Assembly: GCF_017656475.1 (NCBI RefSeq)
Contig: NZ_JACDNT010000019.1
Location: forward strand, 1-34,537
Length of the DNA stretch: 34,537 nt
Source: Archaeoglobus sp.
GTDB taxonomy: Archaea > Halobacteriota > Archaeoglobi > Archaeoglobales > Archaeoglobaceae
Direction of reading: 5' to 3'
This document shows positions 2,518 through 30,153 of the stretch, one piece after another. The position numbers and the translations under genes are program-made. Under the pieces are notes generated by a model. It worked only from the letters and a program-made list of their open reading frames with translations. It ran no database searches and was not told the DNA's origin. Every line of letters begins with the position of its first letter. The stretch's first letter is position 1.

Positions 2518-2792
2518 TATGTTCCACTTGGAACAAGTTGGAACACATTCTGAATCAACTCTATAAAATAGATTCCATGGAAAAACTGCCAGAGAAGGGT
2601 TGATTTACACATCAAAATTTTAAGGAGCAATTGTATATTTCTAAAAGAAAACTTCAGAGATGGCTTTTTAGAGCCTGTAAAGAATTCTCCAAACCATGTA
2701 AAAGCTGAAAAAACCCCATAAAGAACAATTTTAAGGAAAATGTGCCCGGACCCGGATTTGAACCGGGGACTATGCGGTCTTCAGCCGCACGC
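2518..2792. repeat. left direct repeat of the tRNA-Phe island (attachment-site copy)
   Basis: This 275-bp segment recurs in the same orientation at 22969-23244. The last 77 bp (2716-2792 and 23168-23244) are identical, and cover the 3' part of tRNA-Phe plus some trailing sequence. The first 41 bp or so differ by two bases, a block of about 35 bp (roughly 2559-2596) does not align well, and the rest differs by scattered substitutions. Both copies begin with a GTTCYACTTGGAAC near-palindrome followed by a second TTGGAAC. This arrangement marks the left edge of an integrated element. Confidence 0.9.
2743..2792 (-). pseudogene. 3' fragment of tRNA-Phe (att remnant)
   Basis: The minus strand carries the last 50 nt of tRNA-Phe: anticodon arm with loop CTGAAGA, variable region, T arm and the 3' acceptor strand. 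It matches the intact gene at 23195-23244 base for base. The 5' acceptor strand and D arm are missing, because similarity stops at 2792. It cannot form a tRNA. This is the displaced end left when an element integrates into a tRNA gene and restores it with its own copy. Confidence 0.92.
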
Positions 2793-3819: not shown

Positions 3820-4690
3820 CTACAGCTTTTTTCCTTTATTAATTTTAAGCTCTCGTAGGTAGAAGATCATCAAAGAATTATTCCTGAGAGCATCCAACAA
3901 CCCATCCCAGCCCTCATTTATCTCCCCTCTCAACATCCAGTGGATTTCACTAAGGAGTAAACCATATCCTTTAGGGCCGAGAACTGCCTGAGTTTTTGCT
4001 AGGCCTAGTGTTGCTGCAATTTTACCAGTTGTTACAAATGCAGTTTTATACGCTACTTTCTCCTCCAAGAAATAAAAATCAGCCATGAACAAGAAGAAGT
4101 TCATGTAAAATTTCCAGTAATCTTCATCCCTATTGCTTGGCAGTTTTCCAGCAGACTTATACAATTCGTTGTATGAATCAATTAGTGTTGTATAGCCTAA
4201 AACATTTCTAATTTTCCTGTAGTGCTCTTCTGAAGTGTCTATTTCAGGTATTTTTGTGCCAAATTCCTGATTTAGAGTTCTTATAACATGGTTTAACCGG
4301 TATGTCTGTCTGTTGAAGATGTTATAATCCTCAAAAAAAGCTTCGTTTATAGGTCCAATTTCCTTTATTTCATCAGCTAAGCTATTGGCAATATCTTTGT
4401 GTGCTTGGCTAATAGATTTTTCTTGCATAAGAGCATCAAAATGGAATATCAGCAGTTTTAAAACACTCTGGTTTGTAGGATTTTTGCATTCGTTGTAAAG
4501 CTCGACGATAATGTCTTTATTAAAGCCAATCTCTTCCGCCCTTTTAATCAACTCCTCTTTTTTTGCTCATCAAAAAAGATGCATATTGTTTGCTTTCCTC
4601 AACAAATTTAGTGTTGAATTTTTCATCTATCTGGACACAACCAGCGAGGATTAAAGCTAAGATCAGGAGTAGAATATTCCTGCTTATCAT
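3820..4690 (-). pseudogene. predicted lipoprotein with a homopolymer frameshift, downstream of the EVE gene
   Basis: From ATG 4690 the minus strand reads [18 protein letters not shown], a lipoprotein signal peptide with lipobox LAGC (Cys18). It continues through YASFLMSKK. A run of seven A (plus-strand T 4558-4564) then shifts the frame. Six A would continue directly into EELIKRAEEIGF and about 240 more residues, ending at 3820. Without the correction only a TTG start at 4551 is available. The start overlaps the EVE stop (TGATG) and has GGAAGGTGA in front. The mature part is helical and unrecognised. The frameshift could be real, phase-variable or a sequencing error. Confidence 0.75.
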
Positions 4691-5127
4691 CACCTTCCAA
4701 CTATCAACCTGTAATCTTCCTCAGGAATCTCTCTCATCGCCTTTCCCTGTATGTGCCCAGTCCACTTCTTTTTGTTTGCGATGAACTTCAGCTTTGGGAT
4801 GAGAGACTTGAAGTCAATTGGTTTTTCAAATATCTTGATTGGCTTCAATTTAATTCTAAGCGGAAACGTTTCATTCCTGTTTCTTGCAGGCGGTTTGAAG
4901 ATTCTTGAGGAATCTTTGAAAACTTCTGATGCTACTTCGTAGACAGCCATTATTCTCGGTGGGATAACCTCATCATCTTTCTTCGTGGACATAACATAAA
5001 TCAAACACTTGTCTCCAGGCTTAACCTTTGCAATTGTATTTCGATGCTTTTCCTGAACACCCCAAATATTTTTCTGCTTTATAACTTCCCAGTTATCTTC
5101 GTTGGTTATGCAGAGCCAGTAGGCCAT
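4690..5127 (-). CDS. EVE domain protein
   Basis: A 145-residue protein with EVE (PUA/YTH-like) features: an N-terminal [13 protein letters not shown] strand-helix, [12 protein letters not shown], the central [13 protein letters not shown], and the C-terminal [23 protein letters not shown] domains bind modified bases in DNA or RNA and are often found with restriction and anti-phage genes. It starts 6 bp after the DUF499 stop, with GGAGGAGTGA in front. A modified-base reader next to a methyltransferase system is biologically sensible, but its ligand is unknown. Confidence 0.88.
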
Positions 5128-5133
5128 GCTTCA

Positions 5134-7767
5134 TCACTCCTCCGTGTTTTCCTCAACAATTTGGGCATTTATCTGTGCAAGTGTTTCCTTAACCTTATCC
5201 TCGTAATCTGACTTTGCAATTCGACCTTTCCTTGCAGTGATTTTTATTTCAATATCGGTTTCGTCAAAGGAATTCTCAAGGAAGCTGAGAACGCCCTTGT
5301 AAAACTCATAAAACTTGCCTTTTGGAAGTTTGACACTCAGGGTTATTCCCTTGTATGAAGGCTGAGCAACTTTTGGCGGTTCTGGTTCAATGAGTGATGG
5401 GGGAGTTGTACCTATAGGTTCTGTATCTGTCGTTCTATCTCCACCCAGCGATGTACCAGCTTCTTCTTTCCCTTCTTCCTCTTTTATACAGAGTTCCTTC
5501 CTTATGATTGCTTCGTAGTCCTGTAAGGTTACTTCTGGAACCTCTCCGATTTTAACACATTCCACCTCACCATTCCTAACTAGCCCAAATCCAAAATATT
5601 CATCCTTAACTCCATCCTTTATCGATTTGATGAAGCTATCTCTGGAAATCCTCGGTTCTCCAGGTGTTGATAGCAGAGTTTTGTAAAGTTGTTCTAGCTT
5701 AAGGTAATCTTTACTCCCAAGATATTTTTCTAAAATTAAGAAGGGTGAGAGTTTCTCTACTATTTCTCCGTCAGCCTTCAACCTCTCAAGAATCTCGCTG
5801 CTAAGAGGTCTTTTATCTCCAAACATAGGAATGCCCAGATCGATTTCCTTAAGCTCTTTTGCAGGAATGAACACCAATCGGTAGAATTTTCTTAAATTGT
5901 CCCTTTCTTCTTTTTCCATTTCTTTTACGTTCTTATCAACCTCTTTTTTCTGGGCTGGAGTTAGGTTGAGCGATTTATCCTTTGATATGCTTTCCCATGC
6001 TAATTTTCTTCTCAACCAGCTTTCGAAAGCGTATCTTTCCGACTCCAGTGGAGCGAGGAAGAAAACTGTATTCTTGTTTACTCTTGGATTTTCTCCATAA
6101 TTGTTTAGTATGTCGGTGATAAGCTCTCTGTCGTTGGTAGGTAGTATAACAAGCTTGAATCCCTCAGTATCGGGAATATCTTTTGAGTTTTTCGGCCATA
6201 TGTATACAGGCAAACTCTTTCCTGCATATTTCTGCAACAATGCTTTGATTTGCTCTCTGAGTTCAGGTTCTTCAATTTCAGACATTTTTGAAATTACGAG
6301 CTTGTTCAGGTTCGGCTGACTCTTGAAAACGTATCTTCCATCCTCTTTCCATAAATAGTAGAGGGAAGTTGAGAGGCTATCCACAACCTCTGTGATAACG
6401 CTTGAGGGAATGTTAACATCAGCGCATGAAAGCTTCAGCTCACCCAAAGTTACACCTCTCTCACCGCCAGAGAATGAGTATAGAAATATAGCAGATGCAA
6501 GCTTTGTTGCAAGCTTTAGTCCCTGATAAGTGCTTCCAAGACTTCTATCCACCTTCTTTGAGTTTGCATCCTTTGCTGTTATGTCCGCTCTGAGAACACT
6601 CTCGTATTCTCTGCCGATGTGTTTAATCAGCTCTTCTGACAGCTCATCAAAGCTCAAATCAAAATCACATGGGCGAATGAGCGGGATTGAGGAATCCTTG
6701 AGTTTGTAAACGGCAAGGGATAAAATTCTCAGAATTCCTCTCGTTCTCTGAAATGTCGGAAGGCTACCCCACCGTCTGTGAAAGAGGTCAATGACTTCAG
6801 GATGGAATGGGTAGCTTCGGAGCATCTTCTCTCTGTATTCTGCTTTGTCTATCACTATTCCCTCTCTCTCGTAGTACTCTATGAATTCGTTGACTATTTC
6901 CTTGGCTGCGATTTCATCGACATTTGAGAATAGCCTCCTTCTTATCACTTCATAGATTTCATCACCACTAACAGGAGCGTATATTTTCTCAACTCTCCCA
7001 GCCACCTTCTGTAGCTTGGAAAGTAGAGCTTCAGCTTTCTCTTCATCAGGATACTCCATAACGCTTGCTGGCAACGTAACAACGAGCAGTGCTTTATCGA
7101 GTGATTTTACTGCCTCAGTTAATTCCTGCATGAATGCAATCGTCTGAGCTGCCAGATTTGTGTCTCCAACTTTAAGCTCTTTATAACCAGTTTTAATTCC
7201 TGCAGCCTTTGCAACATACTCAAGAACTTCATCCATCAGGATGAGGACTGGCTGATGTTTTTCGAGAACTTTTCTTAAATTCTCCCTCCCAGGAGCTATT
7301 GGCTGATCGAGCTCCTTTATTTCTCCTTCGAGCTGCTTTTCTATTTCTCCCCAGAGTGTTCCAGTGATTTTGCCATTTTCTTCTCTTGGGCTGATTGCTG
7401 TACCAACAATAACTATAACGTTGGCTTTCAACGCATCTTCAAAGTACGGTTTTACAGAGTCAGGGTTGGTGAAAGCATGATATAAAGCAATTAAGGAGTG
7501 AGTTTTACCTCCTCCAAAAGGAGTTTGAATCTGAATTACTGGATCTCCTCCTTCTCCTTTTAACCTTGTTGCAGCAATTTTTAGCAGATTCTTCAACCCA
7601 GCAGTCAGATACGTTTTATTGAAGAAAACATCAGGATTCTGATAATCCTCAACTGCTCTGCCTTTGTAAACCTCCCAGAGATCTGCTGCAAAAACATCCA
7701 TTGTAAGTCTGCCTTCAAGGATATCTTTATGAGGGATTGCAACAAGATGGAACGGCTTCATGTTCAT
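5134..7767 (-). CDS. DUF499 family AAA+ ATPase (COG1483-type) of the defence cluster
   Basis: An 877-residue ATPase. Walker A is in TPFGGGKTHS (Lys88) and Walker B in PVLILMDEVLEYV, with a predicted sensor region around LLVVTLPASVMEYP. The long C-terminal half is charged and ends in a basic segment (ITARKGRIAKSDYEDKV). Residues near 760-790 are a Pro/Glu/Thr-rich linker. The gene appears intact. DUF499 ATPases recur next to DUF1156 methyltransferases and SNF2-type helicases in defence islands, as here. The likely role is nucleotide-driven DNA handling or remodelling in that complex. It lies 67 bp after the methyltransferase 3' end. Confidence 0.92.
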   Translation of the reverse strand: MNMKPFHLVAIPHKDILEGRLTMDVFAADLWEVYKGRAVEDYQNPDVFFNKTYLTAGLKNLLKIAATRLKGEGGDPVIQIQTPFGGGKTHSLIALYHAFTNPDSVKPYFEDALKANVIVIVGTAISPREENGKITGTLWGEIEKQLEGEIKELDQPIAPGRENLRKVLEKHQPVLILMDEVLEYVAKAAGIKTGYKELKVGDTNLAAQTIAFMQELTEAVKSLDKALLVVTLPASVMEYPDEEKAEALLSKLQKVAGRVEKIYAPVSGDEIYEVIRRRLFSNVDEIAAKEIVNEFIEYYEREGIVIDKAEYREKMLRSYPFHPEVIDLFHRRWGSLPTFQRTRGILRILSLAVYKLKDSSIPLIRPCDFDLSFDELSEELIKHIGREYESVLRADITAKDANSKKVDRSLGSTYQGLKLATKLASAIFLYSFSGGERGVTLGELKLSCADVNIPSSVITEVVDSLSTSLYYLWKEDGRYVFKSQPNLNKLVISKMSEIEEPELREQIKALLQKYAGKSLPVYIWPKNSKDIPDTEGFKLVILPTNDRELITDILNNYGENPRVNKNTVFFLAPLESERYAFESWLRRKLAWESISKDKSLNLTPAQKKEVDKNVKEMEKEERDNLRKFYRLVFIPAKELKEIDLGIPMFGDKRPLSSEILERLKADGEIVEKLSPFLILEKYLGSKDYLKLEQLYKTLLSTPGEPRISRDSFIKSIKDGVKDEYFGFGLVRNGEVECVKIGEVPEVTLQDYEAIIRKELCIKEEEGKEEAGTSLGGDRTTDTEPIGTTPPSLIEPEPPKVAQPSYKGITLSVKLPKGKFYEFYKGVLSFLENSFDETDIEIKITARKGRIAKSDYEDKVKETLAQINAQIVEENTEE

Positions 7768-7834: not shown

Positions 7835-9069
7835 CTATTCCAAGAAATCCGTCAACTTCGCATCCTTAGCCTTAGCCTCACTTATTATCCTCTCCTTACC
7901 CGTCAAAAATCCATCGAGCAGTTTCTTTTCTTTGCTGTCGTTAGGTAAGCATTCGGAAACAGCCTGAGCGAATCTGAAGAAAGAATCTTTGAGCCATCCA
8001 GTCTCTTGAAGAGTTTCAGTGATTTCATCCCTCTTGCCCTTCTCCCAGAGCAGCAAAACTTTATGCAGAACATCCACAAGCTCTTTTGCATTCTCAAGCT
8101 CCTTTAAATTCCTCTCGTGAGGGCCAAGAAGGTAGATGTATTCCTTATCTTTTACAACAAAACTCCTGTTCCAGACTTTTTCGAGGTCAACACCAACGCT
8201 CTGAGCCAGCTTGCGGGCTTCATCGAAGTGGACTTTGGCAGTTTGATAGCTCCAGCGATAGAGGAGATAGAATCTTGCTAAGGGTGATAACTCCCAGCTA
8301 TGCCGTTGTGGAGGATTTGTCTGACCGCATAATCAGTAACAAGCTCTCTCACGTATTCGAGGAGTTTGTCCGCTCTGATCACGTTGCCCTCGTAATCCAT
8401 AACTTTCTCGTATTTACCAAAAACTTCTATGGCTGAGCCTATTGCTGATATAAAGAAGTCTGCTCCACTTACTCCTTCTTTCCACAAGCGGTCGAGTTTT
8501 TTGTTGAGGTGTTTTTTGAGCTCTTCTTTCACTTCGTTGAACCAGCCAGTTGGTTCTCTTTCCATTTTCCTTGCTACAATGTAGATTGAAGATGCAAGAG
8601 CAGCAGATTCCTTCGCCCTTAAACGGGCTTTCATTTCGGTATTAATGGGCCATGATGCAGTAATTACCAACCCTGAATCAAGTAAAGAGTTGATTAGTGT
8701 CTCCCAGCCTGATGTGGTTTTGTGGGCGTAAACGATTACAGCGATGCCGTTCGGTTTAAGAATGCGGTGTATTTCCTTAAAGGATTGGCTGAGCATGTTC
8801 TCGAAGTACTCTTTTGCCTCCTCCCAGCTTCTGTTGTTTGTGTATGCTACGATTTCTTTCGATTTGGGTGTTAAAGGTGTGGAGAAAAGTTCTGGGTATA
8901 GGTCGCCTACAGCCCTTTTCAGCCACACATAGAAGAAGTCTGAAAGATATGAATAGGGAACGTTGTCGTAGTATGGCGGGTCTGTGAAAACTGCATCGAA
9001 GTAGTTGTCTGGAAACGGCAACTCGGTTGCTGAAGCCATGAAGACGTTCGGAATTCGGATTACGTTCAT
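7835..9069 (-). pseudogene. C-terminal half of the split DUF1156 DNA methyltransferase, frameshifted
   Basis: The frame from ATG 9069 carries the catalytic motif FTDPPYYDNVPY (DPPY at residues 30-33) and typical family sequence (YLSDFFYVWLKR, TPLTPKSKE). It stops at 8278 after ILHNGIAGSYHP. Near 8288-8291 one base is missing. AGTTTATCACCC instead of AGTTATCACCC would give AGSLSPLARFYLLYRW and continue to 7835 (WNRSFVV, KVLLLWEKG, AKLTDFLE). The N-terminal half with the SAM-binding motif lies 5.3 kb away at 14323-15792. Its ATG overlaps the HepT stop, so this half may still be translated. As sequenced the enzyme is interrupted twice. Confidence 0.88.
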
Positions 9070-9461
9070 ATTTTACCAGCCTCCGCCTTTATTCTGCTAA
9101 CAAAACCGGAGCATTTCTCAAGCAGGTTCACCATTTCGAGCAGCTCACTCTCAGATATTCTGTAGTACTCATGAGCTATAAGGTTTCGGAGAAATATCAG
9201 GCGTTTGAAGGTTTTGAGTTCATCTTCACTTATGTATCCCTCACTTTCAAGGACCTCAAAAAGCTCCCTGTAGGTTGAGGGAAATCCCAGTTTCTTCTTC
9301 GCAACGATGTACTGGGCTAAATCTATGAGGGCGTTGGCAGCCTGAAAGCACTCCATTGCCAGAGTGTTGTAAACAAAGTAGTCTTTAACATCTTTGGATT
9401 TGAGGTTCAACGCACCTTTTAGATGCCTCTCGAAACGCAGTATGTACTCTGCAAGCCTCAT
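9066..9461 (-). CDS. hepT: HepT-like HEPN toxin (DUF86-type)
   Basis: A 131-residue helical protein with the RX4HXY motif LRNLIAHEYY (Arg92, His97, Tyr99). This is the catalytic and AMP-accepting site in characterised HepT RNases. It overlaps MntA upstream by 4 bp. Its stop overlaps the start of the methyltransferase C-terminal fragment (ATATGA). It lies inside the block that splits the methyltransferase. Confidence 0.88.
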   Translation of the reverse strand: MRLAEYILRFERHLKGALNLKSKDVKDYFVYNTLAMECFQAANALIDLAQYIVAKKKLGFPSTYRELFEVLESEGYISEDELKTFKRLIFLRNLIAHEYYRISESELLEMVNLLEKCSGFVSRIKAEAGKI

Positions 9462-9829
9462 CCAAGCACCTCTGAAGAGATTTGCCTGTACATTCGAGCT
9501 GTGTCGAGGTACTCTCTCATGACTTCGAGTTTGATCTCCAGTAGCTTTTCCTCATCCCTGACGAAGATTTCCCTACCGTATTTGAAAACTTCATGTTTTA
9601 TGTGCAACGGCAGGCGGTGAAAAAGGACTACATCGATTTGTGGTGATGCCAAGCTCCCGATTTCTGCCTCACTTTCGGGAGTGGGATTTTCCATTATAAC
9701 CGCAATGTCAATATCTGATAGAGGAGTTGCCTCTCCTTTGGCGTGAGAACCAAAGAGGTAGATTGCAATAACACTTGGGTGGGCTTTGATGGTTTCGATG
9801 ATTTTCGAGAGTTTTTGGTTTAATCCCAT
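9458..9829 (-). CDS. mntA: MntA-like nucleotidyltransferase antitoxin
   Basis: A 123-residue minimal nucleotidyltransferase. The signature GSHAKGEATPLSDIDIAV gives Gly27-Ser28 and Asp39/Asp41, the GSX10DXD pattern of MntA. Characterised members AMPylate the HepT tyrosine in RX4HXY to block the toxin. It is followed by hepT with a 4-bp overlap and is divergent from the M48 protease. This pair is distinct from the HEPN/MNT pair at 3121-3811: its HEPN partner is of the DUF86 type. Confidence 0.88.
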   Translation of the reverse strand: MGLNQKLSKIIETIKAHPSVIAIYLFGSHAKGEATPLSDIDIAVIMENPTPESEAEIGSLASPQIDVVLFHRLPLHIKHEVFKYGREIFVRDEEKLLEIKLEVMREYLDTARMYRQISSEVLG

Positions 9830-9910
9830 GTGTTTTTATTAGGGTGAAAGTTAATATCTTTTGTTCTTACTCGAAAAATTATTATTTGGTGGTTTAGTAT
9901 AGATAGAATC

Positions 9911-10867
9911 ATGGAAATTGAACTGGAGAACGTCAAACTCCTTTTTCAAGCCATAACTATATCTCTACTAATATCAATCTCCATTTCTGCAGTATACTAT
10001 GGGTATCTCCAAAGAGGAGGGTCTTGGAGGGTTGTAGCACAGCTCTCTCTTATTATTCCAATTCTAATCTCTTTGTTCTTAATTTTCTATGTCCCGATTA
10101 TATCAAATCCTATCTGGAATGCGTTATCTTCTTTTGTGCTAATAACCATATTTCTGCTCTTTGTTGGGAGTTATCCGAGATTCGAGTGTGAAAAACCAGA
10201 AGAAAAGTTAGGAGAGATTGAAAACATTCCTATTTTCATCTGCCGTGAGAGAAAAGGCAGAATCTACAACGCATGTTATAAGGGGAGGAAAATCAAAATT
10301 ACGAAAAGTCTTTACGATATATTGTCCGAGGAGGAAAGAAGAGCAATCTTTTACCACGAAGTCGGACATTCGAAGGTAAAACTCTGGGATATAATGACTC
10401 GACTTACCTGCTCTTTATGGCTTCTATCAGTTTCATTGATACTGACGATGTTTGTTTTAGTCTGGTTATCAAACTACGATTGGCTGAACAAACTAATTTT
10501 TTCTATAGCTTTTCTTTCATTCCTACCAATGTATGCCGTTGTGTTCATGATTTCAAGCTGGGTTAATGAGCATGAAGCAGACAGTTACGCTGTTGAAATG
10601 GTAGGATTCAAACCAAAAGCTCAGGCCCTTATAAAACTCCACATTTACAACAGTTTGAAAGGTTGCGAGAATGTAATTTCTGCAATTGAGTTCTCAGATT
10701 TATTTGAACTGGACAAACTTTCATATTTCCAAGTTTTGAAGGCTATAATCCGGAGGGTGTTCAAATATATGCATCCGCAAACCGTCTTAAATCAGCCGTT
10801 GCCAGAAACACATCCGCCTTTGAGGTTGAGGTTAGAGAAGATAAAAGCATTTAAGCGACATAATTAA
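9911..10867 (+). CDS. M48 family membrane zinc metalloprotease (HtpX-like)
   Basis: A 318-residue protein with two hydrophobic segments at the N-terminus (about 10-30 and 43-62), another near 70-86, and further segments near 165-187 and 195-217. The zinc motif HEVGH is at 149-153, and the third ligand is Glu220 in VNEHEAD. HtpX-type proteases clip membrane proteins. This is the only confident plus-strand gene in the island and is divergent from mntA, with about 80 bp of AT-rich sequence between them. It is a candidate effector or housekeeping passenger of the inserted module. Confidence 0.88.
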   Translation: MEIELENVKLLFQAITISLLISISISAVYYGYLQRGGSWRVVAQLSLIIPILISLFLIFYVPIISNPIWNALSSFVLITIFLLFVGSYPRFECEKPEEKLGEIENIPIFICRERKGRIYNACYKGRKIKITKSLYDILSEEERRAIFYHEVGHSKVKLWDIMTRLTCSLWLLSVSLILTMFVLVWLSNYDWLNKLIFSIAFLSFLPMYAVVFMISSWVNEHEADSYAVEMVGFKPKAQALIKLHIYNSLKGCENVISAIEFSDLFELDKLSYFQVLKAIIRRVFKYMHPQTVLNQPLPETHPPLRLRLEKIKAFKRHN

Positions 10868-10890
10868 AACAACAATATTTTAGGACACCT

Positions 10891-12062
10891 ATGTTGGAAC
10901 CCTTACAGCGGGTTATGGTTGGGGTTGATAAATAAACCTTACCTTGGGTTATACACCTCCTTTCTTTTTAACATGTAATATATGCAGACTAACATTTTCC
11001 TTGCTGTGGCTACAATAGCTATGTTGTGTCCCCTCCTCCTCTTTATTCTCAGATAGAAGGAGCGGAGATATTCATCATGCCTTATTGCCACATTTGCACA
11101 CTGTATTAGAATCCATCTAAGCATTCTTGATCCCTGTTTGGTTATGTGACCCTTTATCTCTTTATTTCCTGATTGCTTTATGGAGGGGCATAAGCCTGCG
11201 TAGCTTACAAGCTTGAACTTGTTAGGGAATCTGTTAGCATCTCCTATTTCTGCTTTGATTAGCAAAGCTGAGTAGTAGCTTATTCCAGGGATTGTTGTTA
11301 GCAATATGGCATCGTTATCCTCTTTAGCCTTTTCCTGAATGATTCCGTCTATTCTCTTTATTTTCTCATTTATTTTATCTATGATTGATAGATTGATTTC
11401 AAGGAGTTCTCTGTCTATTTCTGATAGGTCAAGATTTTCAAGGAATTCTCTTCCTTTCTTTGTGAAAGGATTTGGGTAATCTATTATGCCGTTTTTAGCA
11501 AGGATGGCATGTACTCTATTCTTTAATCTGTTTCTGTCCTCTATCAAAGCCTTTCTTAATCTTGTAAGATCTCTTAATTCCCTCACTTCTTTGGGTGGTA
11601 CATAACTTTCTGCTATAAGATTTGCTCTCAAAAGATGAGCAAGCATCTTAGCGTCAAGGGAATCGTTCTTTATCCTTGCTTCAGCTATTATTCTTGTCTT
11701 GTAGGGATGAGCCAGTTTTACTTCCATGTAGTTTTCCAGAACATCGTAGATAAACCTGTAATTTCCTGTTGCCTCTATTACTGCTTTAGCTCCTTTGTAT
11801 TTCATTGCAAATTGTTCTAAGCTTTGTTTGGTGTTCTCTATTCTTACTTCTTCTATTATCTCTCCCAAATCATCCACTATGGCTGCATATGAGTACCTCT
11901 TGTGTACATCCAATCCAATGCAGACCGGATACTCACCTATTCGTGCTTCTAACACACTACCACCATCCTTTTCGCCTGTTAAGTCACCCTAACGCGTTTA
12001 TAACGCATGTTCCAATCTAACTACTGGCATTTGGCTCGGTCTGCTGAAAAGGGTTCCAACAT
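10891..12062 (-). mobile_element. IS110-family insertion sequence with 14-bp inverted repeats
   Basis: The transposase gene is flanked by an exact 14-bp inverted pair, ATGTTGGAACCCTT at 10891-10904 and its complement at 12049-12062. Subterminal inverted repeats are typical of the IS1111 branch. About 93 bp upstream of the transposase start (11956-12048) and about 34 bp downstream are non-coding. The upstream part has a GCGTTATAAACGC hairpin (about 11992-12004) and is where a bridge RNA could lie. True ends may be a few bases outside the repeats. The element lies between the M48 protease and the PD-(D/E)XK-like gene. Confidence 0.75.
10939..11955 (-). CDS. IS110-family DEDD transposase
   Basis: A 338-residue, apparently intact transposase. 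The N-terminal RuvC-like domain has Asp16 (CIGLDVHKR), Glu58 (AVIEATGNYR) and Asp95/Asp98 (NDSLDAKMLA). A central coiled segment follows. The C-terminal Tnp_20 domain has LLTTIPGISYYSA and YAGLCPSIKQSG, with the conserved Ser259 that is the nucleophile in studied members. The start is a GTG preceded by GGATGGTGG. IS110 elements use a bridge RNA to choose their target. Confidence 0.94.
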   Translation of the reverse strand: MLEARIGEYPVCIGLDVHKRYSYAAIVDDLGEIIEEVRIENTKQSLEQFAMKYKGAKAVIEATGNYRFIYDVLENYMEVKLAHPYKTRIIAEARIKNDSLDAKMLAHLLRANLIAESYVPPKEVRELRDLTRLRKALIEDRNRLKNRVHAILAKNGIIDYPNPFTKKGREFLENLDLSEIDRELLEINLSIIDKINEKIKRIDGIIQEKAKEDNDAILLTTIPGISYYSALLIKAEIGDANRFPNKFKLVSYAGLCPSIKQSGNKEIKGHITKQGSRMLRWILIQCANVAIRHDEYLRSFYLRIKRRRGHNIAIVATARKMLVCIYYMLKRKEVYNPR

Positions 12063-12547
12063 GTGGTCACCCTATTCCAAATATTTCCCCCACATGGTGC
12101 TATCCAGGCATCATTGAAACCCTTTCTTTTTAAGGCTACAAATTTACTTTTAAAACGACTGAGAAGAGCGTATACTCTATCCAATTTTTCATCTTGATGT
12201 AGGGGTAAAACTAGAACACCGTAAAACTTTGTATTTCTTCTAGCGTTAAGAAATTCTAATACTCTTGGTAGAATACTATTTCGAGTTTGTGGAAACTTGT
12301 TATCAACAATATCGTCCAATATAGACTCCAGATCATCTTTCATGAGTTCTCCCATATCTTTAAGCTCTACAATAAATATCTGAAATTCCTCGCCTTTAAG
12401 AAAGACATACACAAAATCGCAATGGGATAGCCCCTTCAATCCATTACAATTGCAGTACATTTCGAGATTTAAAAGCAAATACGGATTATCACCCTCCATT
12501 TCAACACCACAGCCGTTCTCCTTATACTCTGCTTTAAGCTCGTGCAT
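12017..12547 (-). CDS. PD-(D/E)XK nuclease-like protein paired with an OLD-like ATPase
   Basis: A 176-residue protein. HCDFVYVFLKGEEFQIFIVELKD has Asp44 and Glu61-x-Lys63 on consecutive strands, the spacing expected of a PD-(D/E)XK nuclease core. Cysteines near 13, 32, 34 and 43 might bind metal. It starts 10 bp after the ATPase stop, so the two form an operon. The last 12-13 codons (NPFQQTEPNASS) run into the IS110 inverted repeat, so the native C-terminus was probably replaced by the insertion. The nuclease assignment comes from motif shape only. Confidence 0.6.
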   Translation of the reverse strand: MHELKAEYKENGCGVEMEGDNPYLLLNLEMYCNCNGLKGLSHCDFVYVFLKGEEFQIFIVELKDMGELMKDDLESILDDIVDNKFPQTRNSILPRVLEFLNARRNTKFYGVLVLPLHQDEKLDRVYALLSRFKSKFVALKRKGFNDAWIAPCGGNIWNRVTTCWNPFQQTEPNASS

Positions 12548-12557
12548 ATCCCGACAC

Positions 12558-14258
12558 CTACAAGCTCATCGCCCATGAAGTCAAGATATTAACGACATCC
12601 GTTATTCCGGGAACATCCTTCATGATCTCGGAAGATCTCTTCTCGAAAACTCTAACTCCGCTTGGTGTTGGTTCGTAGTAGTAAAACCTAACGTCTACAT
12701 TTTTCGCCTCGGAAACAGCTTTAGCTAGAGGCTTCAAATTGATTTCGTCCACGCAGATATTTTGCATTTCAAGGAGTTTCTTTATTAATTCTAAGACTTT
12801 ATTTTCGTTTGGTTTAAATTCCTGAATATATGCCAAAGTGAGTGTCAGCACATCGCTGTGGGTGCTGAAGGCTATTTTGTGGCCAAAAACGTTTGAAAGT
12901 CCAATCAAAGTTAAAGCCATCAGAACCTGTGCGGAATAATGTAGCTGCGACTCTGGTTCTTCAATAATGAGGTAAGAGTTATATGGAACGGATAGGATTG
13001 GTAGTAGGACTCCCGTAACTTCTCCCGCCAAAGCAGAAGCCCATTTTATTGGAACAACTACTGGGTCTCTATCGTCTATTTCTTTAAAACTCCAACGTTT
13101 GTATTTTAATTCGCCAGATCGTTTATCAAACATTAAATTTCCTTGAATGACTGGTTCAAATAGTTGAACCATATTTTTATCGTATTTACCTTCTGAAAGC
13201 TTGGCTCTACCGCTACTTAGCTTAGACATATATGGGTAAAGAGGAGTGTCAAATCCGTAGTAATCTTCAATTATTTCCGTCCTAAGGAAAGGCTCTCGTG
13301 AAATGTATTCCAACTGACAAACGATTGGACTCCTACCGAACGGAATGAACAAAACTGACTGAATACCTAAGGCTCTTCTGTAGATCGATTCAAGCATTTC
13401 ACCGATCTTCTCTGCGAGTCGATCTTGTATTTCTTCGGTTAATACCATCTCAGGAATTGCCCGAAGTATAAACCAGCCTTTTGGTGTTAACTTAAATAAT
13501 CTCAAATTATCTAAAATTTTTAGAATTTCTGTTGTGTCTTTTGCTTTCTCCAATTTAAGTAATTCTCCCTTTGGATATCTTTTCTTTATTATGGGACTTA
13601 TCATATCTAATTTTACTTCTGCTGTTTTTTCAAGAATCAACCTAGTCTCTTGAAGGTACGAGGATATATAGCATCCAATGAAAAGTTTTAGTTCTTGATT
13701 ATAATTTTCTTCTTTTACTGTAAGGGGTCTTCTAAAAGCTTCCACTAATAGTGGAAATAGGTTAGGTACTGATAGTTTAATGTTTACTTTTGTTTTGTCG
13801 GTAGTTGGAAGTAGTCCCCAAAGATGATCGTTTTGCTCTTGTATCAGTTCCATCAGTTTCTTTAAATCTAATATTTCTGTTTTCTTCGACGTCGCTACGA
13901 TCGTATCGTTCTCGATTTTAATATCTATCTTACCGACAGCGTCACCTATGCGTTTGACGATATCTTTTGTCATTTGGGAATCGATCTTGTAAAGTATCGC
14001 CAAATTGGTTAAAAAGACAAATATATCTTCCTCATACACAAAGCGTCTACGCTTCAGAACTCCTAATTCGGCAAATATCGATTTGAGTAAAGATTTTCTC
14101 GCTATTGGATCGAGCATGATTAGAGAAGAATACAGAGCTTTAAGAGTGTAAGATTTACCTACATTCGGCGGGCCGATTAATACCGTAATATCTCCCAACT
14201 CCAATTTTGCCTCGTTTATGGGCCCCAACTTCTTTATCGTAAATTCCATCAAGCTCAC
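12558..14258 (-). CDS. OLD-like / AAA_15-type ABC-family ATPase
   Basis: A 566-residue SMC/ABC-type ATPase. Walker A is GPPNVGKS (29-36 from the GTG at 14258). A long helical insertion occupies about 60-380. Walker B is YLIIEEPESQLH and the switch His is in AFSTHSDVLTLT. The ATG at 14249 (MEFTIKKLGPINEAKLEL) is a better start, because GGTGAG precedes it and family members begin this way. With the adjacent PD-(D/E)XK-like gene it resembles two-gene ATPase-plus-nuclease defence systems. No Toprim domain is visible. It occupies the upstream end of the block that splits the methyltransferase. Confidence 0.85.
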   Translation of the reverse strand: MSLMEFTIKKLGPINEAKLELGDITVLIGPPNVGKSYTLKALYSSLIMLDPIARKSLLKSIFAELGVLKRRRFVYEEDIFVFLTNLAILYKIDSQMTKDIVKRIGDAVGKIDIKIENDTIVATSKKTEILDLKKLMELIQEQNDHLWGLLPTTDKTKVNIKLSVPNLFPLLVEAFRRPLTVKEENYNQELKLFIGCYISSYLQETRLILEKTAEVKLDMISPIIKKRYPKGELLKLEKAKDTTEILKILDNLRLFKLTPKGWFILRAIPEMVLTEEIQDRLAEKIGEMLESIYRRALGIQSVLFIPFGRSPIVCQLEYISREPFLRTEIIEDYYGFDTPLYPYMSKLSSGRAKLSEGKYDKNMVQLFEPVIQGNLMFDKRSGELKYKRWSFKEIDDRDPVVVPIKWASALAGEVTGVLLPILSVPYNSYLIIEEPESQLHYSAQVLMALTLIGLSNVFGHKIAFSTHSDVLTLTLAYIQEFKPNENKVLELIKKLLEMQNICVDEINLKPLAKAVSEAKNVDVRFYYYEPTPSGVRVFEKRSSEIMKDVPGITDVVNILTSWAMSL

Positions 14259-14322
14259 CTACTGGAATTTGACTTACTTGAAGTTTATTAAAACTTTATC
14301 CCAAAAAAAATTGGAGTGAATT

Positions 14323-15792
14323 CTACGCATGTGAGCAGTGTTCAATAACACGTAGAATCCAATCCAAATTCGTTATCCAACTAAAAGATTCTGCAAACGG
14401 GTTGCTTTCGGCATAGTCAAACACCATGGCAATTGCCTGTCTCTGCATGGCTGGACTCATTTTTTCACCAGTAACATGCCAGTAGCCAAGTGTGGAGCAA
14501 TAAGAGGCAAATCTATTGAAATTTAAAGCCAAATACGTCACAACACCCCTCGCATACTCCTCCTCATACCCCTCCTCAACCATCCTGCGGTAAGCTTCTC
14601 TAACCTTATCCACGAAGGTGATTAGAGCAAGCTTCTGCCGTGAATTGAACAAATCACCCCATGTGTTCAACCCGTAATTTCTTACAGAAAAAGCTCTCTC
14701 CGCTCCTTTTCCTTTTCCTTCGGGTGTGGGCTCATCAGGAACCGGCTCAATCCCCCACTTCTTCCTCAACTCTTCAACCTTCTTCTCCAACTCCTTTTCA
14801 GCCTGCCTGAATACCTCTACATCCTTCTCGTTCGCTATTCTGTAAAACTTCCCCTTCTTTTTGAGATGGTGCAAAACAACGGCAACCATCCTCTCTCCAG
14901 CCTTCCCCTCCTGAAACAGCCTTCTTGTTGTCTTGGCATCCACAGTCGAACCGCAAACGGGGCATGTGGCTATAGCACCCTTCACAGTTCCCTTAGATGG
15001 GTCAAAATCCTTAGGCATCTCTTCATACCCATCTCCAACAACCTTGAATTTCACGTCCTTACCCTCAACATACGGATACAACGCCACCTTCTTGTTGCTC
15101 TTCTTCGCCAACCAGAACTGTCTCATCAAAGGAATTTCTGCACCACACGAAGGGTTCTGGCAGGGAATCGTCCTCGCCCAGATATAGCCCACAGGGATGT
15201 ACTCCTCACCGCTCTCCCCGAAATACCCCTTCTGCTCAATAACATCGTTCGGATAAAACCTTCCAATCTCCTTCTTCGCCTCCTCAAGAACCCACTTTCC
15301 CCACTTCTTGACATCCTCAACCAGCTTCTTGCCATACTTCTGCGGATACTCCAGAACAGCCTTAAGAATCAATACCGCAACTGGATTGTAATCTGAGGCG
15401 TAGGTTTCGCAACCCAGCCTCAACGCCTCTAAAGGTATCGCCCCACCACCAGCAAACGGATCAAGCACTCTTGGGGTGTGACCCAAAGCCCTCTTTATAT
15501 CTTCTCTGGCCTTCTCGATGTACGTTGGGTTAAGTGAGTTCTCCCACTTGCAAAGCTCTGCTATAAACTGCTTTACCTTTTCAGCTTCCTCAATGCTGTC
15601 AGGGGCAGGAATTAAAGCTGCATAAGCTGTAGCTCTCGAAGCTGCTAATGGTCGCCTTGCCCACCAGATGTGTAGGGTTGAGATATGGCCATGCCTGATA
15701 TTCTTCTCCCTCGCACTCTCCTCGCTTACTTCCCTAACTGGAAAAGTTTCCTCGATGAATGATCTTTTTATTGGAAATTCTTCTTGACTCAT
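14323..15792 (-). CDS. N-terminal half of the split DUF1156 DNA methyltransferase
   Basis: A 489-residue fragment of a COG1743-type adenine DNA methyltransferase. It has the DUF1156 signature EKNIRHGHISTLHIWWARRPLA (about 29-50), SAM motif I RVLDPFAGGGAIP (108-120) and zinc-ribbon cysteines at 211/216 and 277/280. It ends WILRVIEHCSHA at 14323, just before the expected catalytic DPPY region, which is at 9069-7835. Intact relatives are one polypeptide. The half is open throughout and may fold, so a two-chain enzyme cannot be excluded, but a gene disrupted by insertion is the simpler reading. Its start overlaps the stop of a 34-residue peptide gene. Confidence 0.88.
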   Translation of the reverse strand: MSQEEFPIKRSFIEETFPVREVSEESAREKNIRHGHISTLHIWWARRPLAASRATAYAALIPAPDSIEEAEKVKQFIAELCKWENSLNPTYIEKAREDIKRALGHTPRVLDPFAGGGAIPLEALRLGCETYASDYNPVAVLILKAVLEYPQKYGKKLVEDVKKWGKWVLEEAKKEIGRFYPNDVIEQKGYFGESGEEYIPVGYIWARTIPCQNPSCGAEIPLMRQFWLAKKSNKKVALYPYVEGKDVKFKVVGDGYEEMPKDFDPSKGTVKGAIATCPVCGSTVDAKTTRRLFQEGKAGERMVAVVLHHLKKKGKFYRIANEKDVEVFRQAEKELEKKVEELRKKWGIEPVPDEPTPEGKGKGAERAFSVRNYGLNTWGDLFNSRQKLALITFVDKVREAYRRMVEEGYEEEYARGVVTYLALNFNRFASYCSTLGYWHVTGEKMSPAMQRQAIAMVFDYAESNPFAESFSWITNLDWILRVIEHCSHA

Positions 15793-18845: not shown

Positions 18846-21800
18846 TTAAACCTTCGTAACTTTTCCCTTCCACTTCCACTCGCTGTATGGAATGATAAAC
18901 CTAACCGATTCAACCTTCTCAATTACTTCGAGCTTCTCCGCTGGATTTCTGATGATGTAGAGCGTCGGGCTTATTGCAGCATTTTCAACTATGTAAAGAT
19001 AGTACTGGTCGCCGAATCGCTTAGCTTTAAACCACTCGTTAGGTGTTAGAGCAACATCGCCAGCAGTAGCTCTGGCTTTGACCTCTATGTATCTTACCTC
19101 ATTTTCCCCCACAGAGCGAATGTCATATCCCAGATTTTGGCTGGAAACATCCTCTGGAACTCTCCCATGCATCCTTTCATAAGCCATAGCAACTTCCATC
19201 CCAATCTTCTCAATCTCAGCATCACTTACCATCTCATCTCCCGCCACAACCCTAACAACTCCAACAAGCTTGGGCATGCTGACACTCAGGTTTTTCTCCC
19301 TCTCAATCTCCCATTTCAGCTCGTCCAAAGCTTTTTCGTACTCTCTCTTCCTTCTCTCTGCCATCTGAATGGCCAAATCCATTTTCACTCCTTTCTTTTT
19401 CCTCTCCTCGTATTCTATCAACTTGAGATCGTAGCTCGTGATCAAACTCTTAAGAGATTTAACACCGTATTTCTCCTTAATCTCAGCCTGTCTAAGCCTC
19501 TCCTTTAGGAGTTCATCCTTAAAACTCATTAAGGCTCTTATTGCATAACTTTCAGCTTCCTTCTTCCATCCCTCTTCAAGTTGATAGCTTCCATTGTATG
19601 GAGCCAGATCCCAGATAATGGAAGGATTCAATTCCTTGATTTCACCCGTTCTATCGTCTCGATAAATGGCGAAAAGCCTCTTTCCAGCAACTACACCTTT
19701 TCCATCTGTAACCTCTCCCTCGAAAAAGAAAATCACACCATTGTACATCCCAGACGGATCTTTGAACGTCGCTCCAGTCATGCAGTCCTTGATATAATTT
19801 CTTAGAACCCATTCAAGGACAGCTTCAAACAGAGGATGTCCAAAGGAAACGAACTCAGCATCGGCGTTTTTCATTGCAACTTCTTTGTCGAATGTTATGT
19901 TCTTGTATTTGGAGGCAAGTATTCCCCAAGTATTCTTGAAGCTATCTTCTGCAGCAATTTTCCTGATCTCATAGGGAATTGAGTCTATTCTGTAAAACTC
20001 CCCTGTTTTTGTGATCTTCCCCCCAGCTTTCTCAAAAGCCCTGATAAAGAAGTTCTCAGTATATTCTGGAATCAATCTGTATTCCTTTGCTCTCTCAGCC
20101 ATTTCCTTTATCCTTGTGTAATCTATAAACCTCGTTGCAAGACTCTCACCGAGAGCTTCCTTAACTTTGAATATATACTCTTCATCAAGCTTTGCTTCAA
20201 TCGTTGCAAGTATTTCGTCAATGCTCCTCGCATTGGCGGCAGCATCTATTACGAGCTGATAAAAGTCCCTTCCTGGGAATATCTCTCCAATAACATCAAA
20301 AACTCTATCACCCAGAGCTTCCCTAATCTCTCTAAGTTTGTCGAGAAGTCTTGCAAGAACCATCCCCTCTCTCGTATCCTCATTGACGAGGTTGAAGATG
20401 AATACTTCCTTTGTTTGCCCATATCTGTGTATTCTACCCTCCTCTGCTCAAGTCTGTTGGGATTCCATGGGATATCGTAGTTTATCATGATGTTGCAGAA
20501 CTGCAGGTTTATACCCTCTCCTGCAGCCTCAGTTGCAACCATAACTTGGGTGTTGTGCTTGAATTCCTTCTCTGCCTTAATCCTGTCCTCAAGCTTCATT
20601 CCACCGTGGATGTAGTTAACGCTGTATCCCCAGCTTCTTATTTTGTCGTAAAGGTAATCGAGAGTGTCTCTTGATTCGGTGAATATCAGAATCTTCTGAT
20701 TCTTCAGCTCACCACTCTCCATCAACTCTTTCAGTTTCTTCAGCTTAACTTCGCTCTCCTTCCTGATGATTTCGTCCGCCTTTTCGATTAGCTTTTCAAT
20801 TGTCTTGATTTCCTTCTCAAGCTCCTCCCTCGTTTCAGCAACGCTTAAACTCTCCCACTCCTGCTCTATCCTCCATCTCTCCTCTTCTTCGTAGTCGTCA
20901 ACCTCCTCAATGTCTACAGGCTTAACCTCCCTTTCAATTCCATTCCTCAGAATTTCCTCAAGTCTTCTCTTTCTCCTTTCAAGGGAGCGTTTCAGAGCGT
21001 ATATGCTGGAAGCCATCCTTCTCTGCAGAATGATGAGGGCAAATGCAACGTTTCTTTTCTTATCACTCATTAAAGCTTTGTTGTATTGAGTAATAACGTA
21101 TTTTGAGAGCTCGTTGTAAAGCTCACGCTCCTCATCTGTTATGTTGAACTTGATCGTTTTAACGTGCCTTGGGAGGAAGAGAGGTCTTCCTTCGAAATCC
21201 CTCAAATCCTCTTTGAGCCTTCTTATAAACAGTGGATTGTCCCTGTTCTTTATCGACTCCATAAGCATTGATTGGGATGCGAAAAATCCTGGTTCGAGCA
21301 AATCAAGAAACAATCTGAAGTTCTCTGGATCGCCTTTATGCGGTGTTGCTGTAAGAAACAGTAAATGCTCTGAAGTTCTTGACAGAACTTCGCCGAGCTT
21401 GTATCTTGCAGTCTTGCTGATTTTCTCTCCATAACGGTATGCAGCCATCTTGTGGGCTTCATCAACTATAACCAGATCCCAATGAACGCTGCTAAGAGAG
21501 TTGAGAACGTGCTCCTGCTTTGCGAAATCCATTGACGTTATTATCTGGTTCTCCCTCTCCCAAACGTTCTCGCCAAAATGAGCATCCATTGTATGTCTGT
21601 CAACAGTTACGAAGTTTTCAGAGAATTTCTCTTTAAGTTCTCTTCTCCACTGGTCTTTCAAATGACCTGGAACAACGATGAGTATTCTTCGGGCCAAACC
21701 TCTCAATTTCAATTCTTTGATTATGAGCCCAGCCATTATGGTTTTACCAGCTCCAGGATCGTCAGCTATAAGAAATCTAATCCTTGGAAGCTTCAAAGCA

Positions 21801-22129
21801 TAACCATACACTGCCTCAATTTGATGTGGCAAAGGATCAACTCTTGATACATTCATTGCCAGTATTGGGTCAAAAAGAGATGCCAACCTGAAACGATATG
21901 CTTCCAAACCCAGAAAAACGTCTTCAGGATTTGCAGAAAAATCCATATTGTATGTAAATGCCTTCAGCTTTGAAATCTCATCTTTTGGGATTATTCTGTC
22001 TATATGCTGGTTACTATCTATTGTAGCACCGACGATTCTTACAAAATCTCCAAACTCCTCCACTTTTTCTATTTTAACTGGTTCTGGGAAAAGAGATGAT
22101 TGAATGACTATACCGCTTCTTATTTCCAT
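18846..22129 (-). pseudogene. SNF2-family helicase with C-terminal DUF3883 domain, frameshifted
   Basis: The first frame (22129-20249) has Walker A DDPGAGKT (123-130), DEAH (223-226), motif III LTATPHKG, motif IV region ILIFTESRD and motif V VATEAAGEGINL. It then loses frame within motif VI near 20439-20442. CAGAGGATGGGTAGA instead of CAGAGGAGGGTAGA gives QRMGRIHRYGQ and joins the second frame, which runs to 18846. The second part ends in DUF3883 (VSSQNLGYDIRS, IEVKARATAGD, YYLYIVENA), a PD-(D/E)XK-like domain common in defence helicases. An internal ATG at 20363 behind GAGAGGGG could give a separate C-terminal protein. Confidence 0.88.
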
Positions 22130-22150
22130 GTAACTTCTTTGGATTTGTTG

Positions 22151-22158
22151 TATATTTT
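22151..22158 (-). promoter_or_regulatory. TATA box for the helicase/methyltransferase operon
   Basis: The minus strand has AAAATATA about 22-29 nt before the helicase ATG at 22129, with no Shine-Dalgarno sequence between. This fits a leaderless transcript at the head of the island's main leftward operon. The repeat array begins about 75-110 bp further upstream. Confidence 0.5.
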
Positions 22159-22268
22159 ACTTACGTTTACAAACACGGCTCAGAAACAAAAGAACTGCGT
22201 GTTGAGTCTAAGAGAATTGATTTGATTTCAAACGTTGATTTTCTGTTGACATTGATCCGTCAAACCTC

Positions 22269-22559
22269 ATCAACCTGTTGATTTACTGGGTGAACCGATT
22301 CAAATAGTAAAAATCAACCTAATCAACGAGTGATCAACTGGATCAACACCATCAATTTGATCAATCAACGCTCAATCAACGATGATCAACTCTATCAACA
22401 AATCAATCAACCTCGATCTACAAGTCAATCAACGCTAATCAACCTTAATCAACTGATCAAAAATTGACCGATCAACTTCTATCAACCTCAATCAACCCAA
22501 ATCAACAGTCAATCAACAGTCAATCAACTAATCAATCAACAGGCTCAACGTAAATCAAC
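22269..22559. repeat. helically phased ATCAAC direct-repeat array
   Basis: Twenty-one exact ATCAAC hexamers occur in one orientation in about 290 bp. Examples are at 22322, 22333, 22342, 22364, 22375, 22385, 22394, 22471, 22481, 22491, 22501, 22512 and 22523. Most start-to-start distances are 9-12 bp, about one helical turn; larger gaps are mostly 19-23 bp, with a degenerate hexamer in between. Inverted GTTGAT copies occur at about 22234 and 22278. No gene covers it. It resembles an iteron array or a cooperative binding platform for a protein docking on one DNA face. Confidence 0.85.
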
Positions 22560-22560
22560 A

Positions 22561-22684
22561 GGAATCACCTTATCAATCCCCTTTATCCCCACATATCCCT
22601 TTATCAATCCCCTGGTGATCACTCATGATCCCCTTTAATCACCCTTCATCCCCCATCAATCTCCCCTAAAATCACCATGGTGAT
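22561..22684. repeat. ATC(C/A)CC-rich block ending in a 14-bp palindrome
   Basis: Directly after the ATCAAC array the motif changes to repeated ATCCCC, ATCACC and ATCAATCCCC (about ten loose copies). It ends with the perfect palindrome ATCACCATGGTGAT at 22671-22684. The strand is strongly pyrimidine-rich. It may be a second binding array or an unwinding region. No coding frame explains it. Confidence 0.6.
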
Positions 22685-22968
22685 AACCGAAAGAGGGAGT
22701 ATCCTTCAGGGAATCGCTTTAGTAATGAGGAGAAAAGTTGGTTGATGATCTTCTAGAATGGATGGCTTAAGGGAATAGTTATCTCATCTTTTCTATCCGC
22801 ATTTCATATTCAGATCCTCCGTTTCATTGCTTTTCTTTACCTCCTGAAAAACCTTTTCACATTAGCTTGGATATTTTTCTTTCTCTTCCTGAGATTTTGC
22901 CCCTCTGCTGAGCATTCCCTCAACAATTTTTGTTCTTATGGTTACGTATTCATCTCACGCTCACGCTC
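22685..22968. other. gene-free right end of the island with a possible decayed reading frame
   Basis: No intact gene is visible. On the minus strand a coding-like frame (DEYVTIRTKIVEGMLSRG, then KSQEEKEKYPS, a stop, CEKVFQEVKKSNETEDLN) runs leftward from about 22960. It has no start and is broken by stops, so it may be the remnant of a small element gene. A tandem CTCACG doublet lies at about 22954-22966 beside the repeat. Confidence 0.3.
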
Positions 22969-23244
22969 TATGTTCTACTTGGAACAAGTTGGAACATATT
23001 CTGAATCAACCTCTCTAAGGAGTGATCAGGGAAAAACGAAAGAAGAAAGGTTGATTCGCACATCAAAATTTTAAGGAGCAATTGTATATTTCTAAAAGAA
23101 AACTTCAAAAATGGCTTTTTATAGCCTGTAAAGAATTCTCCAAACCCTGTGAAAGCCGAAAAAACCTCCATAAAGAACAATTTTAAGGAAAATGTGCCCG
23201 GACCCGGATTTGAACCGGGGACTATGCGGTCTTCAGCCGCACGC
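22969..23244. repeat. right direct repeat of the tRNA-Phe island
   Basis: This copy matches 2518-2792 in the same orientation and contains the 3' 50 nt of the intact tRNA-Phe. The 77 bp nearest the tRNA are identical in the two copies and the outer part is mosaic. The copy next to the intact tRNA is expected to be the incoming element's version, and the left copy the original host sequence. Confidence 0.9.
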
Positions 23245-23268
23245 TCTCCCTGGCTGAGCTACCCGGGC
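23195..23268 (-). tRNA. tRNA-Phe (anticodon GAA)
   Basis: The minus strand folds as a complete cloverleaf. The acceptor stem is GCCCGGG with TCCGGGC (one G-U pair at the base). The D arm is GCTC...GAGC. The anticodon stem is TGCGG/CCGCA with loop CTGAAGA, so the anticodon is GAA at 23232-23234. The T arm is CCCGG-TTCAAAT-CCGGG. The discriminator is A and CCA is not encoded. It is the integration target of the island. The last 50 nt are duplicated at 2743-2792. Confidence 0.97.
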
Positions 23269-29364: not shown

Positions 29365-30153
29365 ATGTACAAGATAATCGAGGCTCCGAATTCCGGGAAA
29401 TATCCCTTCAGCCACAGTCTGATTGTCGGGAAAAGCTGTATTATCGACACTGGAGCCGGTGAAAAACTCGCTTCATTGAGGTTTGATTATGTTCTCAACA
29501 CTCACTGGCATGAAGACCATATAGCGATGAACAGGATAGGCAGAAAGGTTCTGGCACACCCTCTCGATGCGGAGGCGATTGAAAGTTACGAGGAGTTCAG
29601 GGAAAGGTACGGTTTGGGTGATCTGGCTAAGATGTTTATAAACTTTGAATTTGGTAGTGTCTATGATGTTTTTGAGGATGAAGACGAGCTTGAATTTGAC
29701 GGCGTTGGTGTTGAGGTTCTGCACACTCCTGGGCATTCAGCGGGGCACTGCTGCTTTGTTGTGAATGATGAGGCTATTTTTCTCGGCGATATCGACCTCA
29801 CAAGCTTTGGACCCTGGTATGGCTGCCTGGATTGCGATGTGAGGGATTTTGCTGCCTCGGTGAAGAGGCTGATGAAGGAGGTGGAGAGCAGAGACATAAA
29901 TCTGGCAATCCCCTCCCACGGAAATCCGGTTTACGGCAAGGAGAACATAATCGAAGCTCTGCAGAAGTACCTCAACAAGTTTTGTGAGAGAGACAAGAAG
30001 ATTAAAGAGTTGGCAAAATCAGGTGTGGATCCTGTGGGGAAAGGTGTTGTTTACAGAAAACTACCTGAGCCAAGGGAGATCTACCTGCACTTCGAAAAAA
30101 TTATGGTGGAGAAGCACCTCACCACTTCTCTCGATAAATTCTGTCAGGGTTGA
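29365..30153 (+). CDS. metallo-beta-lactamase fold hydrolase
   Basis: A 262-residue protein from ATG 29365, chosen because an upstream extension to 29299 would overlap the divergent hisH start and lacks family sequence. The metal motif is THWHEDH (His47, His49, Asp51, His52), followed by TPGHSAGH, FLGDIDL and PSHGNPV. Such enzymes hydrolyse thioesters or similar bonds; glyoxalase II-like activity is possible. Its C-terminus overlaps the convergent nitroreductase by 35 bp. Confidence 0.88.
   Translation: MYKIIEAPNSGKYPFSHSLIVGKSCIIDTGAGEKLASLRFDYVLNTHWHEDHIAMNRIGRKVLAHPLDAEAIESYEEFRERYGLGDLAKMFINFEFGSVYDVFEDEDELEFDGVGVEVLHTPGHSAGHCCFVVNDEAIFLGDIDLTSFGPWYGCLDCDVRDFAASVKRLMKEVESRDINLAIPSHGNPVYGKENIIEALQKYLNKFCERDKKIKELAKSGVDPVGKGVVYRKLPEPREIYLHFEKIMVEKHLTTSLDKFCQG

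Follow-up and report, generated by a model that had tools for sequence, protein, structure and literature searches.

The 34,537-bp contig analysed here, which we call the window, comes from an Archaeoglobus sp. genome and contains an integrated element of ~20.4 kb bounded by 93-bp att direct repeats. The left repeat, attL (2701-2792, plus strand), is 97.8% identical over 93 columns to attR (23152-23244, plus strand), which overlaps the integration target, a tRNA-Phe (GAA) gene recognised by Rfam at 23194-23268 on the minus strand. The cargo identified by PADLOC is an Hma-type defence operon whose genes hmaA, hmaB and hmaC are all on the minus strand. Its first gene, hmaA, is frameshifted into a 5' part encoding a SNF2 helicase (20249-22129) and a 3' part carrying a NOV_C domain in another frame (18846-20363), with a TATA-like promoter element, AAAATATACAACAAA, at 22150-22159 (minus strand). 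The DUF1156 methyltransferase gene hmaB is interrupted, its 5' part (14323-15792) lying ~5 kb from its 3' part (8278-9069), and hmaC, encoding a DUF499 ATPase, occupies 5134-7767. The minus-strand EVE-domain gene at 4690-5127 has similar genes in islands L034, L035/L357 and L350. The ~5-kb insert that splits hmaB (8278-15792) includes an IS110-type transposase gene (10939-11955) and an AAA_15/OLD-like ATPase gene (12558-14258), the latter possibly forming another defence unit with its neighbour. One further gene has similar versions in three sister elements, each close to the integrase end: 3820-4551 in the window, 4101-4898 in L034 and 14278-15015 in L357.

Direct att repeats with one copy over a tRNA gene, the arrangement of SSV-type elements, are present in the window and also in L357/L035 (51 bp) and L034 (50 bp). 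The split integrase layout is visible in sister L034, where a PF16795 integrase lies at attL and an ORF for the N-terminal integrase fragment (IntN) runs into tRNA-Phe. The window retains a degenerate IntN remnant alone (22970-23193, plus strand), homologous to ORFs at L009 7211-7522 and L034 10504-10851, and the PF16795 integrase core had no match in the whole of this genome.

Between the Hma operon and the tRNA end of the element, a motif search finds 21 exact copies of the hexamer ATCAAC on the plus strand (22269-22559), an array spanning ~300 bases. The initial annotation of this DNA had described about 21 direct repeats on one strand, with no gene over them, between the helicase promoter and the attachment site, and that description holds: the hmaA start codon is at 22129, the att repeat in tRNA-Phe begins at 23152, and a reading-frame scan found no stop-free frame across the array, which rules out a coding repeat. 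Among 2000 dinucleotide shuffles of 22130-22600, the mean was 0.85 copies and the maximum 6. Two reversed copies (GTTGAT) are present, one at 22277 and one to the left of the array core at 22234-22239 (minus strand), the latter marking the left edge of the interval first annotated. A CRISPR array is ruled out by the 6-bp unit and the mostly 3-6-bp spacers, as opposed to long near-identical repeats separated by unique spacers of tens of bases. A known RNA is likewise ruled out, the tRNA-Phe being the sole Rfam match in the window.

Successive ATCAAC copies are spaced by 44, 9, 11, 9, 22, 11, 10, 9, 12, 22, 10, 10, 23, 10, 10, 10, 11, 11, 12 and 19 bp, with spacers of varied length. The best-fit period is 10.6 bp with a vector strength of 0.89, a value that 2000 random placements never reached; for the looser unit ATCAA the period is 10.55 bp (p=0.0003). 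The array has the multiple helically phased direct repeats typical of iteron-controlled origins. The earlier claim that all copies face one side of the DNA stands as a strong tendency, but "all" is slightly too strong. Two features, one within the array and one beside it, are shared with other loci: a conserved dyad-like core, GTTGATTT-n-TGAACCGATTCAAA-n-AAATCAAC (22276-22319), present too in L009, L033 and, inverted, in the remnant L032, and a pyrimidine-rich tail (TTATCAATCCCCTTTATCCCC...ACCATGGTGATAACC, 22563-22700) common to the window and an array on contig C33 of the same genome.

A three-copy ATCAAC pattern occurs in this genome only in the window and on C33 (locus L009), where an array accompanies a type I R-M operon and tRNA-Val in the window's layout, and the intergenic DNA is ~73% identical. 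A third island, L361 on contig C10, was detected through the palindrome GTTGATCAAC and contains an R-M operon, a HEPN-MNT pair, an IntN ORF and tRNA-Val. Beyond the window, the genome was thus found to hold just two further sites, both in tRNA islands of like kind, rather than many unrelated dense runs, and a chromosome-wide repeat is ruled out. In L361 the near-identical GTTGAT/ATCAAC clusters at 7211-7452 and 8647-8841, without clear phasing, lie on either side of the HEPN-MNT gene pair, as if duplicated at its insertion or as if forming a recombination site.

The search for ATCAAC arrays beyond the window that the initial annotation had proposed revealed recurrence not only in these tRNA islands but also in those of relatives (L033, L034, L035, L351 and L345). 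L032 holds a remnant, and the clusters of four proviruses, L036, L038, L039 and L353, are looser. Array periods are 10.75-10.85 bp in C33, L034, L035 and L351; phasing is borderline in L345 and mostly not significant in the provirus clusters. Proviruses L036 and L038 encode a HerA/FtsK-like ATPase. In L034, L009, L345, L350 and L351 the order tRNA/IntN, DNA-binding gene, array, defence cargo recurs. Across 55 genomes of the family the three-copy pattern was found at 14 loci, 10 of them in integrated elements or their remnants and three of the other four in low-complexity coding DNA; a reversed-control pattern gave 0 matches in the same 55 genomes. Scans of genome and viral collections were uninformative for this element family, since the matches listed came mostly from unclassified viral contigs and Bacteroidota. 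Among the matches listed, ATCAAC arrays are numerous in Saprospiraceae and further Bacteroidota (L041-L159), often as facing pairs ~85-100 bp apart, and these are apparently unrelated to the arrays of Archaeoglobaceae-type elements.

In the complete L357/L035 element, EVE and R-M genes run leftward, a UvrD-type helicase and a primase-like gene run rightward, and the array lies near the junction between the leftward cargo and the helicase-primase module. The module (L035 12223-16085) comprises the helicase gene, a large-primase-subunit-like gene and a gene of 380 aa, a replication-like set within a defence island that we take to resemble pTN2-type plasmids. In the joined sequence the GC-skew minimum falls at 29990, ~1.8 kb past the array, a position consistent with an origin, although the direction of transcription confounds the skew.

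The initial annotation had offered two functions, replication or partition iterons of the element and a platform for a multimeric regulator of the defence operon. An element of the operon would be expected to be conserved with its promoter in orthologues, and it is not: intact hmaA orthologues (85-90%) in four genomes retain an identical or near-identical TATA region and have no array (in G010, 175 bp upstream were covered), and the array is likewise missing next to the hsdM orthologue (90%) that neighbours tRNA-Val in G011. Moreover, convergent genes flank the L345 array, which is at the 3' end of hsdR, and the same hsdM is accompanied by opposite array orientations in L009 and in L034/L035. 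A promoter element of the Hma operon and an operator of hsdM are both ruled out by these observations, and the regulator platform is left unsupported. Because of them we assign the array to the element backbone, independent of cargo promoters and of the defence system. Of the two functions first offered, element iterons fit best, since the array is a backbone feature that recurs in sisters and proviruses with different cargo.

A candidate partner gene, the family of alignment A1, separates array from IntN in L034 and L009 (short in both), L345 and L351, and is no more than ~3 kb from the clusters in four proviruses. The 224-aa partner protein of the L345 island shares 84% identity with its counterpart in provirus L353, and GTTGAT clusters are present at both loci. 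Its C-terminal half models as a winged helix, MarR/SarA-like by Foldseek, and its N-terminal half is predicted from a strand-helix-helix pattern to be a ribbon-helix-helix (RHH) domain. Pfam, hhalign against approximate RHH sequences, and Foldseek gave no match to an RHH fold, and a PDB sequence search did not confirm it either. No relatives of the candidate binder were found in the phage, plasmid and viral-contig collections. A simple pairing of gene and array is opposed by two observations: arrays occur without a homologue of this gene in L035, L361 and the window, and the gene occurs without a visible cluster in L346-L349, L352 and L354. In G026 (L348 8684-9343 and downstream) the DNA-binding gene directly precedes a pair of hsdM-like genes, and no repeat cluster is visible in between.

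Covariation of protein and motif has one clear case, L350 from another genus, in which IntN/tRNA-Lys is followed in turn by two tandem copies of the partner gene, an ATCCGA cluster, and a type III R-M operon plus an EVE-like gene. This ATCCGA/CTCGGAT cluster (12500-12780), also not significantly phased, reproduces the array-island architecture with a different motif. A provirus-like locus on contig C28 of the window's own genome, L344, encodes a DNA-binding protein 68% identical to that of L345, and at 8801-9140 is rich in GATGAA/TTCATC, both within a Zn-ribbon-like gene and ahead of it, an enrichment partly explained by acidic coding sequence. As a case of covariation this largely acidic coding cluster is ambiguous. 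The predicted DNA-facing strand residues differ among proteins that accompany the same motif and do not track it.

Our favoured interpretation, to which we give about an even chance, is a maintenance role in cis: tRNA-integrating elements would use the array as an iteron- or centromere-like site, bound by a protein of the element. The family would be that of split-integrase, SSV-type mobile elements of Archaeoglobaceae-type archaea, with the site common to proviruses of the same hosts. An element-encoded dimeric protein, with its predicted N-terminal RHH domain and winged helix, would occupy ATCAAC half-sites, two of which make up GTTGATCAAC. With ~10.6-bp phasing, these dimers would all face the same side of the helix and could bind cooperatively, building a continuous nucleoprotein complex on the array, and this complex may maintain the excised circle through replication initiation, partition, or both. 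We do not file the array as a partition system because no motor NTPase gene (ParA/ParM/TubZ) was found among the element genes read or scanned, a subset of the ORFs. Nor do we file it as an origin, because no recognised initiator adjoins the window array, beside which there is no ParA/ParM either; a helicase-primase module is present in the L035 element only. Also weighing against the favoured interpretation are the arrays and binder genes that occur apart from each other, the differing strand residues, the lack of support for the RHH domain from Pfam, hhalign or Foldseek, and the non-significant phasing of the L361, proviral and ATCCGA clusters.

The main rival casts the DNA-binding protein as a lysogeny- or copy-control repressor, with the array as its multi-site operator for flanking element or provirus promoters, a possible explanation that we nonetheless think doubtful. 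The resemblance of the winged helix to MarR/SarA-type regulators suits such a role, as do the array's position just upstream of the first cargo gene's TATA in most islands and the clusters in L038, L039, L353 and L036, which span a Zn-ribbon gene's promoter and 5' half, with genes for membrane proteins and a packaging ATPase downstream. However, the hsdR 3' location, the two orientations beside one hsdM and the array-free orthologous promoters all tell against it, and 16-21 phased sites are many for a simple operator. Persistence of the motif in the window, L035, L361 and L032 without the candidate gene, together with the variable strand residues, could instead point to a host-encoded protein exploited by the elements, for example a replication or chromosome-organising factor. 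This is unlikely: the protein-carrying element of the more distant genus has ATCCGA instead, and no dense arrays were found at ordinary host chromosomal loci, except for one three-copy site and low-complexity coding DNA.

The array is often within ~0.5-2 kb of att, and N-terminal integrase fragments resemble small strand-helix-helix domains, so that the array could serve as arm-type sites bound by the N-terminal fragment of the split integrase in an accessory recombination role. Yet the L035 array is 7 kb from att, the proviral clusters are internal, and the fragments differ between elements that share the motif, which makes this very improbable. We give slightly less credence still to a functionless, fortuitous expansion of simple sequence (a minisatellite). 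Elsewhere in the phylum the three-copy pattern does consist mostly of near-perfect 12-bp tandem repeats, and ATCAAC runs abound in Bacteroidota, but here the hexamer and its ~10.6-bp phase persist across spacers that differ in both sequence and size, and different elements carry the feature in the same position. In addition, none of 96 motif positions differ between the arrays of C33 and G003, a closely related pair whose comparison is weak alone. It is also quite improbable that the defence islands stand to proviruses as satellites or near relatives, sharing with them a DNA-binding protein and docking motif, the array acting as a cis signal for island replication or packaging by resident virus machinery.

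The window copy is an orphan in a decayed element that has lost its partner gene and integrase core and whose Hma genes are broken. The window is ~570 bp shorter than C33 at the place matching the partner gene, and from this missing DNA we infer the gene's loss. The window array is probably vestigial unless the protein comes in trans, from C33 or from the provirus-like locus on C28.

In the limited set of open-literature papers searched, we found no description of an ATCAAC array, nor of an origin or partition site of this kind in hyperthermophilic archaea. These observations suggest that a whole group of mobile elements with defence cargo, from hyperthermophilic archaea, has a cis site in common and perhaps a DNA-binding partner protein as well. 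They show the site to be distinct from the defence system itself. Phased half-sites and a small protein would make a compact, testable protein-DNA pair, and the array can serve as a marker for finding such islands.

Among known systems, iteron-controlled plasmid origins likewise have multiple phased direct repeats in one intergenic region, and the L035 array lies by a helicase-primase module; the window array differs in having no Rep-type initiator next to it and a unit of ~10-11 bp, the classical plasmid iteron unit being ~20 bp. StbA of plasmid R388 acts on direct repeats. With its stb site it offers, by description, the likeness of a stability protein without a classical motor, although its context is bacterial and conjugative (PMC3098194). 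SSV-type (suicidal) archaeal integrative elements share tRNA-gene integration and an att site inside the integrase gene, which is split afterwards, and pT26-2-type integrases have been reported in Archaeoglobales (PMC8371274); here the backbone carries defence cargo, an EVE gene and the array, and the window copy lacks the integrase core. AvPV1/Thalassapleoviridae (PMC10919331) and ArcVen-P3 (PMC4158269) also integrate in tRNA genes of the same host group. In the excerpts of those two reports that we draw on, RHH and Zn-binding genes are annotated in these published proviruses, and winged-helix genes in the AvPV1 group, but no such array is described. ParR/parC (type II) and ParG/Omega (type Ib) are similar in their short-repeat arrays near helical pitch: ParR repeats measure ~10 bp, the iterons of Omega occur both as direct and as inverted copies, and these small RHH proteins form wrapped or helical complexes on repeats close to the binder gene (PMC5016525). 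They differ in that no ParM/ParA motor was found in the elements examined and that the candidate binder, its RHH domain being a prediction, adds a winged helix. TubR/tubC (type III) pairs direct repeats with a winged-helix protein (PMC5016525), although we found no TubZ and the protein architecture is different. By analogy, parC/ParR, the Omega or ParG sites and tubC/TubR would be the nearest working parallels for the array.
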